DNA from: Anoxybacter fermentans
GTDB lineage: Bacteria > Bacillota > Halanaerobiia > DY22613
DNA: 64,000 bases
Direction: 5' to 3'
NCBI RefSeq assembly: GCF_003991135.1
Contig: NZ_CP016379.1
Location: 1,984,001 to 2,048,000, forward strand
A program made the position numbers and the translations under genes. The notes below the pieces were generated by a model. The model saw nothing but the letters and a program-made list of their open reading frames with translations. It was not told where the DNA came from and searched no databases. This document shows, one piece after another, positions 17,392-38,467 of this stretch (positions are counted from its first letter, which is position 1; every line of letters begins with the position of its first letter).

Positions 17392-18615
17392 ATGACTCTA
17401 AACAAGGTGCTCCGTTTTTTTAAATCGATCTCTGCACTTCAAGGTATGGCCGGTGCCATCATATCACCATATTGGATTGTTTATTTCTCCAAACACCTCA
17501 CGTATTCGAAGATATCCATTTTGGTTATCGTAAATTACGCTGCAACGTTGTTGTTCGAAATTCCAACAGGTATTGTCGCAGACGTATACAGCAAAAAACT
17601 CTCTGTTATCATTTCTTTAGCTGTCGTCACGTTATCATCAATAGGTATTTACTTGGTGGGAGACGAATATGTTTATCTACTCATCATTTACGCCGTTCGG
17701 GGGATAGGGGCGACATTCATGTCTGGCGCTTACAGCGCTTGGTTTACCGATTCTATGATAAGTATTGGCGAGAAAGAGGCATTAACCGAACAGTGGGGAA
17801 GACTGGCTTCCGTGAAACAGTTAGCGAGCGCAATCGGTTTTGTGCTAGGGACCGGGCTAGCACTGGTGGACCTACTGGACGAAATTTGGTTGGTAAGCGC
17901 GTTATTCAGCGCTGTGGCACTGCTGCTCGTTCTATTGCGGGGCATCGAAGTACAAGTTGAGCGAGAAACCAAAGCGCAAAAATCTAAACTCCGGGCGTAC
18001 GTGGAAACTCTAAAAGAGGGCTCTCTTTATCTGTTTAAAGACAAAATATTGTTTGTAGTAGCATTGGCTTCGGCGGTTTGGTACGTGGGTACGGGAATGG
18101 TTTCGCTATCCTGGCAGCCCTACTTCTCTGAAGTTGGCATTGTCTTAGGGTCGTTTGGCGTCGTGCTCATTTTCTACGTGCTGGTGGGTTCCGCCGCGGC
18201 GCGGTACGCAGGCAATCTCACGCGGCTGTTCGGAGGCGAGCGCAGGTTGATGGGATTGCTGGCCCTTGTTACCGCAGCGCTTTCGTTCTTAATCACCACC
18301 GTGGGGAGATTGGCCTGGCTGCCTTTTGTGGGCATTGGTGGTACGGAAGGCCTAAAGATGCCGGTATTCCAAGGCTACTTAAACAAGGAGTTGCCATCTA
18401 CTGTACGCGCGACGGTGCTTTCCAGCTATAGTATGTTCGTTAGCGTAGCCACCATTGTCAGCATGGCACTGTTTGGGTTCATCGGCGAGCGTTATGGTCT
18501 TGGTAACGCCATGAAAGCCGCGGCCATAATGCTGGTTGCCTCGGCCGCACTCTTTTTCTTGAATCAGGAGGGGCAAAACGGAGAAGGTTCAATCGGGACT
18601 TCAAGCTCCAAATAG
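17392..18615 (+). CDS. MFS transporter (407 aa)
   Basis: Major facilitator superfamily protein with about 12 hydrophobic segments, probably an exporter of a small molecule or modified peptide. The FEIPTGIVADVYSKK stretch (about residues 56-70) is the conserved loop between TM2 and TM3. The start is set by AAGGAG 9 bp upstream of the ATG. It is clearly paralogous to the protein at 20403-21629, sharing FEIPTG, GAxATFMSGA, WQPYF and FQGYxNK in the same order. The 3' half is much richer in G and C (for example GCCGCGGCGCGG near 18193) than the surrounding AT-rich DNA, suggesting transfer or mosaic origin. The last residues (after NQEGQ) may be read-through sequence. Substrate unknown. Confidence 0.85.
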   Translation: MTLNKVLRFFKSISALQGMAGAIISPYWIVYFSKHLTYSKISILVIVNYAATLLFEIPTGIVADVYSKKLSVIISLAVVTLSSIGIYLVGDEYVYLLIIYAVRGIGATFMSGAYSAWFTDSMISIGEKEALTEQWGRLASVKQLASAIGFVLGTGLALVDLLDEIWLVSALFSAVALLLVLLRGIEVQVERETKAQKSKLRAYVETLKEGSLYLFKDKILFVVALASAVWYVGTGMVSLSWQPYFSEVGIVLGSFGVVLIFYVLVGSAAARYAGNLTRLFGGERRLMGLLALVTAALSFLITTVGRLAWLPFVGIGGTEGLKMPVFQGYLNKELPSTVRATVLSSYSMFVSVATIVSMALFGFIGERYGLGNAMKAAAIMLVASAALFFLNQEGQNGEGSIGTSSSK

Positions 18616-18729
18616 CGCATCATTGAACTGGAGCGGCTGGTCGGAAGGCTCAACCTGGAGGTGGAGGTCTTAAAAAACGCCTTTGGTAGCGCACCAATGG
18701 GAGAACAAATGACTGGCCCTCGCAATTAG
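18616..18729 (+). pseudogene. IS3-type OrfA coiled-coil fragment
   Basis: Directly after the MFS stop the same frame continues RIIELERLVGRLNLEVEVLK to a TAG at 18727. This resembles the C-terminal leucine-zipper part of IS3-family OrfA. Its GC-rich codon use matches the 3' half of the MFS gene, so both may have arrived on one segment. The next 130 bp hold nothing recognisable. Confidence 0.5.
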
Positions 18730-18866
18730 AAAATACTATCCCGGGCCAGCTCTTTAATATTGGAAATTATGCCATTAAAGATTCTATTTTTACCAAGTTA
18801 CTTTTAAATGCTTCATAAAATTTTACTGAAGGCATATTTCGGATGCTTCCATGCCTTCTTCTCTCA

Positions 18867-19731
18867 TTATAATATCATATAATTACTTACTATGTCATAT
18901 ACTTCCATAAAACTTTTAAACTCATTACGACTATAACATTCTTCTTCCAATATTGAATGAAATGCCTCTATATGTGCATTCATATTCGGGATTTTTACAG
19001 GAATTTTTTCATGCTCTATACCTAATTCCTTACATAAGCTATTAATTTCATGAGAAATAAACTGAGGACCATTATCTGTCCTTACTTTTGGCATGTCCAT
19101 TCTTTTTACTATACACCTTTTTCTTAATGCATTTTTTAAAACTCTACAAGCATCTTTTGTTTTACAAGATAATCCCAAATAATAATCTATTATTAAACAA
19201 TCGAAAACATCTATTAGTGATAGTTGAAAGAAAAATTGATCAGTTCCATAAATATATCCGTATTTTATATCCATTTTCCATAGTTGATTTGATGAATGTA
19301 TCTTTTCTCTTTTTGCTAACCAACAAAGATGCCTTTGCTTAATTTTCTTCTGTGGTCTTAAGATATTCAACTCTTTGCATAGCCTACCTTTTTATGATTA
19401 ATTTGAAGATCATAGTCTTCCTGAAGACATACCGTCAGTTTACAATATCATCTCCAGCAACCAACTTACATAACCATTCCTTAATTTGCTCATCAGAGAT
19501 TCTTACACCTTTACTGGTAAAAGAGTAACCAGGAATTGGTCTTCCTGAAGGTTTTCTAATGTCAGCCTATTTTTTTGATTTTCTTGCTATGTTCTCATAA
19601 TATGTAGATGAGGATAAGCCGACAAAGCCTAAAACCAGGCTGGTCTTATATCCAAGTTCTATCCATTTCTTTGCTATGGCAACTTTGTCGGCTATTGAGG
19701 GTTTACTTTATCCCTGAATCCGTGACACTTT
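18867..19731 (-). pseudogene. Decayed IS3-family (IS150-like) transposase OrfB
   Basis: An intact reading frame at 18867-19370 (167 aa) holds the integrase core, with acidic residues in WKMDIKYG, KVRTDNGPQF and HIEAFHSILEEE, the DDE triad. Upstream, to about 19731, pieces in other frames continue the N-terminal part: AIAKKWIELGYKTSLVLGFV, SSSTYYENIA, GRPIPGYSFTSKGVRISDEQ, KLTVCLQEDYDLQINHKKVG. Frames change at least twice and stops occur, so the element is dead. No clean terminal repeats were identified. The 215 bp that follow to copy B hold no gene. Confidence 0.8.
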
Positions 19732-34444: not shown

Positions 34445-36322
34445 TTAAACAAGCGCATTATCTAACATGGCTATAGCAGTCTCCACTATATTCTCCATAG
34501 TCAACCCATATTCTTTTCTTAAAAGATCGGGATCACCGTGACGGACAAAGGTATCAGGAATAGCAATTTGCTTAACCTTTACATTCAATTCAGCTTCAGC
34601 TAAAAGTTCTAAAACCGCGCTGCCAAAACCACCGCTTTTTACATGTTCTTCAACAATAATCAGATGTCCAGCCTTCTTAGCCCAATCTATAATTAATTTT
34701 TCATCTAATGGTTTAACAAAACGTGCATCGATGACTGCCGCATTTATACCCCGTGCTTTTAAACGTTCGGCTGCCTGAAAAGCAGGTGTTACCATATTAC
34801 CGATAGCAAGAATGGTTAAATCCTCTCCCTCTTTTAAAAGCCGTCCTTTACCAATAGGGATTTCCTTTAAATCAGAATCCAATAAAACCCCTATACCAGC
34901 TCCCCTGGGATACCGAACAGCCGTAGGTTGAGACTGCTTAAGAGCAGTATAAAGCATATGCTGTAGCTCATTCTCATTGGCCGGAGCCATTATAATCATA
35001 TTCGGCATACTCCGCAAATAAGAAAAATCAAAAAGTCCCTGATGAGTTTCACCGTCAGCACCAACAATTCCACCTCTGTCTATGGCCAGAACCACTGGTA
35101 GATTCTGTAAACAAAGATCATGAAAGATTTGATCATAGGCTCTTTGTAAAAATGTAGAATAGATAGCTACAACGGGTTTCATTCCTCCCAGAGCCAGACC
35201 TGCACTGAAAGTAACAGCATGCTGTTCAGCAATTCCTACATCAAAGAAACGATCAGGAAAAACTTCAGCAAACCGATCTAGACCTGTTCCCGAAGGCATA
35301 GCTGCTGTTATCCCTACTATCCGGGAATCTTCTTTAGCCAACCGGATCAGTGTATCACTAAAAACCCGTGTATAGGTAGGAGGAGTATCTTTTTTAATCA
35401 GTTTTCCTGTTTTAATCTCAAAGGGGCCAGTCCCGTGGTAGGTATCAGGGTGTTTTTCTGCTGGCGGATATCCTTTACCCTTAGTAGTAACTACATGGAT
35501 CAGTTTAGGTCCTTTTACCTGTTCTGCATCCCGCAGTGTTTCACAGATATCCTGAATTTTATGCCCATCTATTGGACCTAAATAAGTAAAACCCAACTCT
35601 TCAAAAAGAATCCCCGGTATCACAAAATACTTCAAACTATCCTTCAAACGTTCTATTGTCCGAACAACTCGACTACCGATAGCCGGAATTTTGCTTAAAA
35701 GAAATTCTAGATCATCTTTCACCTTATGTAGGGTAGGATCTACCCTGAGTCTGCTTAAATATTTTGATAATGCTCCTACATTAGGAGAAATGGACATCTC
35801 ATTATCGTTGAGAATAACTGTCAAATCAATTCCCAGATGCCCAGCGTGATTTAATGCTTCAAAAGCCATTCCTCCCGTAAGAGCACCATCACCAATAACA
35901 GCAACCACCGCATGAGATTTGCCTCTAAAATCTCTGGCACGGGCCATACCCAAAGCAACAGAGATGGAAGTACTGGTATGACCCGTATCAACAATATCGT
36001 GGGGGCTTTCAGAACGTTTTGGAAATCCGCTTATTCCTCCATACTGACGTAAAGTATGGAACTCATCACGCCGACCGGTAATAATTTTATGAGCATAACT
36101 TTGATGGCCCACATCCCAGATAATCTTATCTTCTGGACTATTATAATAATAATGTAGTGCCAGTGTTAACTCTACTACACCCAGACTAGGAGCCAAATGT
36201 CCTCCTGTTTTTGCAACGGTATTAATAATTTTTTCCCGAATCTCCTGGGCCAGTATATATAATTCAGAATAGCTTAATTTTTTGAGATCTTTCGGGTCAT
36301 TAATTTTTTCGAGTAAAGCCAT
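34445..36322 (-). CDS. dxs: 1-deoxy-D-xylulose-5-phosphate synthase (625 aa)
   Basis: First enzyme of the MEP isoprenoid pathway, joining pyruvate and glyceraldehyde 3-phosphate with thiamine diphosphate. The TPP motif is [20 protein letters not shown] with the following [12 protein letters not shown]. The transketolase pyrimidine domain has [18 protein letters not shown] and [22 protein letters not shown] precedes the ATG. Its start lies inside oapA (49 bp overlap), so the two are likely coupled. Length is normal for the family. Confidence 0.96.
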
Positions 36323-36882
36323 CGCTTACCACCCCCACTGTCTCTTTTTTGGCTAAAATCAAACAAAAGCTCTACACTTGCTATAATTCTACCAATAATA
36401 AAAATAATATCATTCGCCTTATCGATTCCTATTCGTTTACCATAGGCTTTCCCGCCAACGGTAAGGGCAGCAATAAAAGCAAGTGTCAATATTCTCAAAA
36501 TATTTATATTCACGTTTAACCCATAATCAACAATTCTGATAATAATCACAGCAGTCAACGCTCCACCAACTGTACCACAAATATCGCCAACAATATCACA
36601 GCAGAAGCTAGCTACTTCATCTGCCCGTTTAACTAAAAAAAGAGCTTTTTTAGCTCCAAATATCTTTTTCGCTGCTTTCGCATTTAAAGGTGCCTGATCA
36701 GCAGCTGTTGCTGCAACACCAATTATATCAAAAATAATTCCTACCGTAACTACTATAATTAGAATTATCACTGCTCCAGGTAATGAAACAAACTCTACAA
36801 CACCTGACGAAAATAGTGTAACCAAAATAGCAATAATAAATGTGAGAAATCCCATCTTAAATGCTCTTATTAGATTACTCAA
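36274..36882 (-). CDS. oapA: OLE-associated membrane protein OapA (202 aa)
   Basis: Integral membrane protein with weak likeness to the CNNM/CorC (DUF21) transmembrane domain. Hydrophobic segments are seen at about 12-32, 36-58, 105-120 and 130-145. A charged cytosolic stretch lies near [20 protein letters not shown], and a basic C-terminus near [11 protein letters not shown]. Starts with TTG (36880-36882) behind GAGGTGA. In extremophilic Firmicutes the gene directly downstream of OLE RNA encodes OapA, a partner that brings the RNA to the membrane. Here it lies 38 bp after the putative OLE RNA and runs into dxs. The assignment rests on position, size and topology. Confidence 0.82.
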
Positions 36883-36919
36883 TCAAACTTCACCTCAAAA
36901 ATTAAATATTTTTAATTAT

Positions 36920-37525
36920 GAGTCATTGGTGGTAGTACACGAGGTAAACGCTGCGGCTTAGGTCCAGCAGGTTTTCCCAATGTTCTACCAGCCGTCGCCG
37001 AACTGGCGGTTTCCCTTTAAAGAACATCCTGCAGTGTCACCATCTGCAGAGCTGGATCACCACTTAGTCCGCACTTTAATCCCTCGTGCACTTCCCAAAA
37101 AGGGAACAGTCTAGAAGTTTTCCTTAACAATACAAGCTATCTCTTAGCTCCTTTTGCAGAACAGGTTTCAAGTGATACAAGCATTTTTTCTGGGCCCCTG
37201 GAAAAAATGCTTAATTAACACTCTCCTCCTGTTCCACTCAGAGCAGGCTACGCTACACGTACCCCCAGCATTTTTAAATGTCTGGAGATACTCTTGTAGG
37301 TTTTCACCTGAATAGAGCCGTAGCCCTACTCAGGCCTCCACGGAGGAAGGGTCATCGCCCACATGCCTTTGTGGATCGCCCTGGCCTCCTTAACTCCCAG
37401 CACCGACCCCCGACTGGGCGTCAGCAGCCGGCACCAGAAGCTTCATCGATGTGCCCGACGACGGATTTTTAGGCCCGCCTTCAGAGATAGCTGTATTGAC
37501 TAGAATACTGCACCACCAATGACTC
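36920..37525 (-). ncRNA. ole: OLE RNA (ornate large extremophilic RNA), about 606 nt
   Basis: The gap between ispA and oapA is far longer and more GC-rich than others in this AT-rich window and holds no plausible gene. Its two ends are perfectly complementary: GAGTCATTGGTGGT at 37512-37525 (5', minus strand) and ACCACCAATGACTC at 36920-36933 (3'), giving a 14-bp closing stem. Other local stems are visible, for example GGCATGTGGGCGATG near 37350. OLE RNA is known as a roughly 610-nt RNA placed between ispA and dxs with the oapA gene, and this matches in length, place, orientation and terminal pairing. I did not align it to the published consensus. Confidence 0.87.
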
Positions 37526-37576
37526 TCAATATTATACCATAAACCTTTTTTTCTGGCAATGAACCAGTAATTGGGA

Positions 37577-38467
37577 TTAGCTTTCACGTGTCAGGATAAA
37601 ATCTAACAGTTGATTGAAACGTTCAGCCTTCTCTTTATATGGAGCCAGAGCTTCCTTAGCCCGGTTGACGCTTTCTTGAGCCAACCGCCTGGCTTCTTCT
37701 AATCCCACCAGAGCAGGATAAGTAGCCTTAGCATGACTCTCATCACTTCCTACCGGTTTGCCCAACTTGGTTTCATCTCCAACCACATCCAGAATATCAT
37801 CGGTTATCTGAAAAGCAAGGCCAAGATATTCTGCAAACTCAGTTAACCTGGCCAGATCTTCAGATGATGCTCCACTCATAATCGCACCACTTCGAATAGA
37901 GGCTCTAAAAAGTGCTCCAGTTTTATGGGCATGAATATATTTCAAAGTCTCAAGATCAATTTTTTTCCCTTCTGAAAGAATATCAACAACCTGACCGCCA
38001 ACCATTCCTTTAGAACCTGCCGCTTCTCCAATCTCTCCGATTACCTTTAAAAGTCGATGAGAATCAGCACCATTTTCAACTGCTTTAGCCATCACTTCAA
38101 AGGCCCGGGTTAAAAGAGCATCCCCGGCCAAAAGAGCAATAGCCTCCCCGTAAACAACATGATTGGTTGGCTTACCACGCCTTAGATCATCATCATCCAT
38201 ACACGGCAGGTCATCATGAATAAGAGAATAAGTATGAATTAATTCCAGAGCACAGGCGATAGGCATAACATGTTTTTTATCACCGCCCAATAATTCAGCA
38301 GTCCATAAAGTCAAAACCGGCCTTAAACGTTTTCCACCGGCATAAACACTATAAGCCATAGATTCATGCAAAATCTCTGGTTTTCCTTGAGGTAAATATT
38401 CTTTTAAAGCTTGATTCACTTCATCAGCAGTAGCTTTTAATGCAGCTTTAAAATCAGTAAAAGACAT
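37577..38467 (-). CDS. ispA: Farnesyl/geranyl diphosphate synthase (296 aa)
   Basis: Class I trans-prenyltransferase making FPP from IPP and DMAPP or GPP. The first aspartate-rich motif DDLPCMDDDDLRRG begins at residue 85. The second is DDILDVVGDETKLGKPVGSD. The residue just before FARM region is small/aromatic as in short-chain synthases. The ATG follows the xseB stop directly (TAGATG) with GAGGTG inside xseB, so the two are translationally coupled. The OLE RNA begins about 50 bp after its stop. Confidence 0.95.
   Translation of the reverse strand: MSFTDFKAALKATADEVNQALKEYLPQGKPEILHESMAYSVYAGGKRLRPVLTLWTAELLGGDKKHVMPIACALELIHTYSLIHDDLPCMDDDDLRRGKPTNHVVYGEAIALLAGDALLTRAFEVMAKAVENGADSHRLLKVIGEIGEAAGSKGMVGGQVVDILSEGKKIDLETLKYIHAHKTGALFRASIRSGAIMSGASSEDLARLTEFAEYLGLAFQITDDILDVVGDETKLGKPVGSDESHAKATYPALVGLEEARRLAQESVNRAKEALAPYKEKAERFNQLLDFILTRES

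Follow-up and report, generated by a model that had tools for sequence, protein, structure and literature searches.

Our analysis identifies the GC-rich stretch between ispA and oapA as a gene for an OLE RNA (Rfam family RF01071) set in its classical operon. In a covariance-model search, the family model matched positions 36913 to 37532 on the minus strand over its whole length (model positions 1 to 616 of 616), with 530 bits and an E value of 1.3e-152, the Rfam gathering cutoff being 50 bits; this score ranks among the higher ones of our phylum sample. OLE was the only Rfam match at curated thresholds within the 64-kb stretch of DNA analyzed here (the window), and the complete, Halanaerobiia-type genome of 3,557,532 bases carries a single copy. 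GOLLD, ROOL, and the raiA motif are, like OLE, large structured bacterial RNAs whose function is poorly understood; unlike OLE, they have no family match within the 64-kb window. We are highly confident that a full-length-type OLE RNA in the classical operon, together with the four-step working model described below, is the best explanation of the locus. The copy is correctly named, typical, and a known kind of object: OLE is a membrane-bound stress-response RNA of approximately 600 bases, which thousands of Bacillota species are already known to carry, and the present copy is not new.

The mature RNA likely spans about 36920 to 37525 (606 nt). It lies in a gap of 694 bp, put at about 690 bp by the earlier note, between ispA (37577 to 38467) and oapA (36274 to 36882), both on the minus strand, as are all of the features of the locus described here. 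The note had called this gap far more GC-rich than its surroundings, which is a fair wording: the OLE stretch has a GC content of 49.8%, versus 36.8% for the window and approximately 33 to 46% for its neighbors, and belongs to the top 1% of 620-nt windows. The perfect pairing of both ends over 14 bp, said to bracket 606 nt, is exact (36920 to 36933 with 37512 to 37525). The proposed OLE identity was borne out by the covariance-model search, the very check that the note had suggested, and the protein encoded downstream does belong to the OapA family, as expected for an OLE RNA upstream of OapA in its operon. What did not hold is the claim that few strains have been studied, since published lists count OLE in 2,822 GTDB genomes of Bacillota (PMC11332333) and give 8,585 nonredundant sequences (PMC12286853); these lists draw on the same genome taxonomy as the present analysis. 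Likewise, the copy had been presented as a useful comparison, but it adds little, given these large catalogues and the two available cryo-EM structures (PMC12265935). One more sighting matters little for an RNA class that is already described and has thousands of members; the by-products of modest use are the breadth of the promoter across the phylum, the scarcity of the P6 mimic, and the constraint on P3 length.

The OLE strand folds better than every one of 20 dinucleotide-shuffled controls (z score, −8.7), and its minimum free energy (MFE) fold returns P1, P3/P3.1, and the expected hairpins. P1 joins GAGUCAUUGGUGGU (5′ strand, 37512 to 37525) with its perfect 14-bp complement, ACCACCAAUGACUC (3′ strand, 36920 to 36933), whereas the longest end pairing found in 1,000 shuffles of both ends was 10 bp (mean, 5.8 bp). 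Compensatory changes occur in 13 of the 14 P1 pairs among 21 OLE sequences; since the P1 region is unpaired in the Rfam model, this covariation does not derive from the structure built into that model. In the present copy, P3 and P3.1 form a 16-bp helix, seen in the duplex fold, in the MFE fold, and by covariation, between a 5′ strand of 16 nt (37483 to 37498) and a 3′ strand containing 16 paired bases and one bulged base (37128 to 37144). Across the alignment of the 21 OLE RNAs, 89.5% of the cells in P1, P3, and P3.1 are paired, compared with 73% in shuffled and 38 to 51% in slid controls, and 144 P1/P3 cells are changed on both sides, versus 50 (shuffled) and 23 to 41 (slid).

The OLE dimer was proposed to cross the membrane via its P3 helices (PMC12265935). 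In P3, the segment of the 5′ strand has a length of 19 to 20 nt in 93 of the 93 loci measured, out of 105, the remaining 12 having been left out because an anchor motif was absent; some duplex counts and 3′-strand lengths took impossible values, and only the 5′-strand and P7+P8 lengths were used. Despite this constant length, the sequence of P3 covaries freely. We may speculate that the P3 helices of the dimer span the membrane and that their constant length is a ruler matched to the thickness of the bilayer, a doubtful idea to which we give rather little credence. The membrane-crossing model (PMC12265935) demands a constant P3 length, but this constancy does not prove it, since other parts of domain 1 come close to P3 in this respect: the length from P4 to J6/7 also varies little, and constancy is thus not unique to P3. 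The constant strand length of P3 provides a simple constraint for tests of the membrane-spanning model.

The sequences of the dimer-contact loops, namely, the A run of L4, the L5.1/L6.1 pair, and the palindromic L9, are present and conserved. The P4 loop (CCUAAAAAUCC, 37463 to 37473), an invariant core in our A2 alignment, corresponds to the A-rich dimer contact that the cryo-EM work names bridge B1 (PMC12286853). The L5.1 region (UGACGCCCAGUC, 37412 to 37423) is conserved in the same alignment, in which the GGCAUG of L6.1 (37362 to 37367) is invariant; L5.1 is a kissing-loop dimer contact, and L6.1 is the kissing partner of the L5.1 of the other monomer (PMC12265935). L9, the self-kissing contact of bridge B3 (PMC12286853), carries the palindrome GGGCCC (37192 to 37197). 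A GGNNCC palindrome is found in the L9 of 51 of 101 loci, whereas 2.3 would be expected from shuffles, which is in line with the B3 kissing contact.

Binding sites for the protein partners can also be placed on the RNA. The predicted k-turn for OapC would be built from J4a/5 (CAUCGAUGAAG, 37441 to 37451), whose role in the 5′ half has been described (PMC9723947, PMC12286853), and from J6/7 (CCGUGGAGG, 37335 to 37343), the 3′ half according to cryo-EM (PMC12286853); both segments are highly conserved in the A2 alignment. Alignment to the Rfam consensus shows that the OapB site at P13 is retained, the predicted binding site being the P12.2/P13 region (36985 to 37015), to which an OapB-binding role is assigned (PMC9723947). 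The P6 region is the bS21 site (PMC12054373). Here, its 5′ strand AAGGAGG (37385 to 37391) pairs with CCUCC (37342 to 37346), forming a perfect Shine-Dalgarno/anti-Shine-Dalgarno mimic, both halves of which occur in 9 of 95 loci. Since bS21 bound the mimic-altered mutants M1 to M3 about as well as the wild type (PMC12054373), the interaction with bS21 probably does not rest on the exact mimic in general, and the scarcity of the mimic limits ribosome mimicry as an explanation of bS21 binding.

In common with the typical RF01071 RNA, the present copy has its length, a covariance match over the whole length, the conserved cores, helices P1 to P13, the dimer loops, the position upstream of oapA, and a promoter of its own. 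It differs from it in the GGGCCC of L9, in the perfect mimic of P6, and in a short P7 with an extended P8 loop, the latter combination being also found in the nearest relative. With respect to the Rfam consensus, P7 is shortened and P8 holds approximately 17 additional bases; both helices fold, which assigns the RNA to the full-length type and not to variant 1 or 2. The P7+P8 segment is the most variable one in all of the OLE RNAs measured, ranging from 49 to 138 nt.

A near-perfect extended −10 sigma-A promoter sits in the 44-nt gap between ispA and OLE. Our promoter scan found the −35 hexamer TTGCCA (37554 to 37559) followed, after a spacer of 17 nt, by TGgTATAAT (37531 to 37539, with TATAAT at 37536 to 37531), which amounts to 11 of 12 consensus positions with a TG ahead of the −10 element. 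The usual spacing predicts a start at about 37524, which would be a single base inward of the outermost base of P1 (37525). Of 103 distinct OLE loci, 83 carry a strict version of this pattern (TTG, 16 to 18 nt, TGn, and at least five of the six bases of TATAAT, within 100 nt), versus 6 of 408 control windows further upstream; dinucleotide shuffles gave a mean of 0.8 and at most 3. The same strict version recurs in 32 of another 40 phylum-wide loci, chosen from almost as many families, for which shuffles gave a mean of 0.2 and again at most 3. OLE loci share ancestry, and these counts do not represent independent events. In most loci, the predicted starts fall at or outside the P1 end (median, 5 nt outside). 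We dropped the notion that a dedicated promoter is new, since the ole gene of Halalkalibacterium (Bacillus) halodurans (H. halodurans) is reported to have one (PMC9723947). The addition made here is one of breadth, the predicted promoter being found at approximately 80% of the sampled OLE loci across the phylum, which suggests that independent OLE transcription is general and not special to H. halodurans.

The gene order xseA-xseB-ispA-[OLE]-oapA-dxs-tlyA-nadK-argR-recN-spoIVB is the classical OLE neighborhood. Upstream, ispA encodes a polyprenyl synthetase (PF00348, 1.1e-63), and downstream, oapA, which encodes a membrane protein of 202 residues with homologues in relatives and starts with TTG, is followed by dxs (34445 to 36322; PF13292, 2.4e-124). 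In each of the 29 relative loci (29/29), oapA is the gene immediately after OLE, with OapA identities of 39 to 65% among those aligned; by OapA, the nearest named relative is a metagenome-assembled genome of Halothermothrix sp. (64%). The last 49 nt of oapA (36274 to 36322) are also the first 49 nt of dxs, and the nearest relative (L028) shares the OapA tail encoded there, an arrangement suggestive of translational coupling. In most of 30 loci, a mechanical reading gives TTG or GTG, not ATG, as the oapA start, as if a low OapA output per transcript were favored. The OapA protein matches the CNNM domain with 17.4 bits (E = 0.0038), below the Pfam cutoff of 28.4; within its family, 15 of 22 members match CNNM at an E value of 1 or less, weakly and at best with 5.6e-6. 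A comparison of OapA with solved structures returned no match.

The OLE-OapA-OapB-OapC-bS21 complex was studied experimentally in H. halodurans, in which ole lies within an operon and has its own promoter, as at the present locus. All four protein partners are likewise encoded in the present genome. The OapB gene (encoding 98 residues; L031, 1179 to 1475) is found in a map-oapB-infA context, and its product matches PDB entry 7k9b, “OLE-associated protein B” (4.5e-13). The OapC/YbxF gene (encoding 90 residues; L034, 1471 to 1743) lies between rpoC and rpsL, the best match of its product being YbxF structures (2.9e-15), and bS21 is encoded at L036, 1492 to 1665 (TIGR00030, 70 bits). H. halodurans is without MpfA (PMC11332333), whereas the present genome keeps one MpfA-type CNNM-CBS-CorC protein; this single gene fits the published pattern, in which OLE species carry at most one MpfA (PMC11332333).

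Beyond the present locus, the window's own genome was considered together with those of 60 relatives, and 34 of these 61 carry OLE; in a sample of 398 genomes of the phylum, 290 do. Four of the genomes (G221, G250, G268, and G293) gave two or three OLE matches each, with weaker scores, perhaps from genes split by insertion or duplicated. When 80 loci from named genomes were collected by OapA alone, OLE lay directly upstream of oapA in 79; the remaining locus is that of Anaerofustis stercorihominis, in which OLE is elsewhere in the genome. This genome (L113 and L187) is a rare one in that it has both ole and oapA but keeps them apart. In each locus or genome that we looked at, the OapA family occurred together with OLE.

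Since no GC-rich intrinsic terminator separates the RNA from oapA, the transcript probably runs on into oapA, and the region, which is in the leader position of that gene, could be regarded as a cis-acting, riboswitch-like element of oapA-dxs instead of a free-standing RNA. We consider this very unlikely: the region matches the family at full length, the H. halodurans member is a separate and abundant RNA of approximately 630 nt (PMC9723947), P1 joins both ends into a closed unit, and the Anaerofustis OLE gene is away from oapA, which is impossible for an oapA leader. The two ORFs of 64 to 65 residues that overlap the gap might suggest a small protein. However, these are chance ORFs, the earlier note having likewise seen no credible protein gene in the gap, and the conservation is accounted for by the compensatory changes and the full-length RNA-family match with neither ORF needed; a protein-coding reading has practically no probability left and is rejected on the covariation of paired columns.

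It could also be argued that this OLE is a degenerate, nonfunctional remnant, as its P7/P8 deviates from the consensus and as the one MpfA present might substitute for it. This is extremely unlikely in view of its high rank by score in the phylum sample and of its near-perfect promoter, as well as of the intact state of the conserved cores, P1, P3, the dimer loops, and oapA; moreover, P7/P8 is the segment in which all of the measured OLE RNAs vary most.

For the preferred reading, an intact full-length OLE RNA, we infer the route from transcription to stress tolerance from the work on H. halodurans and Clostridium. Housekeeping-sigma RNA polymerase would start between ispA and OLE, at the dedicated extended −10 promoter, with operon read-through contributing too, and the transcript would run from the outer P1 end into oapA and dxs, OLE being freed by 3′ processing. 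The 606-nt RNA would fold and dimerize via L4, L5.1/L6.1, and L9. OapA, the product of the neighboring gene, would anchor it in the cell membrane, and OapB, OapC, and bS21 may bind P12.2/P13, the k-turn, and P6, respectively. The ribonucleoprotein (RNP) would aid tolerance of cold, alcohols, high Mg2+, and poor carbon sources, probably via divalent-metal handling by a putatively CNNM-like OapA. By homology, OLE would function in stress and Mg2+ homeostasis as a dimeric membrane RNP anchored by OapA.

Elsewhere in the window, in the region from 17392 to 19370, an MFS transporter gene overlaps the highest-GC stretch (up to 55%) and adjoins an rve-type transposase fragment; this gene was possibly acquired.
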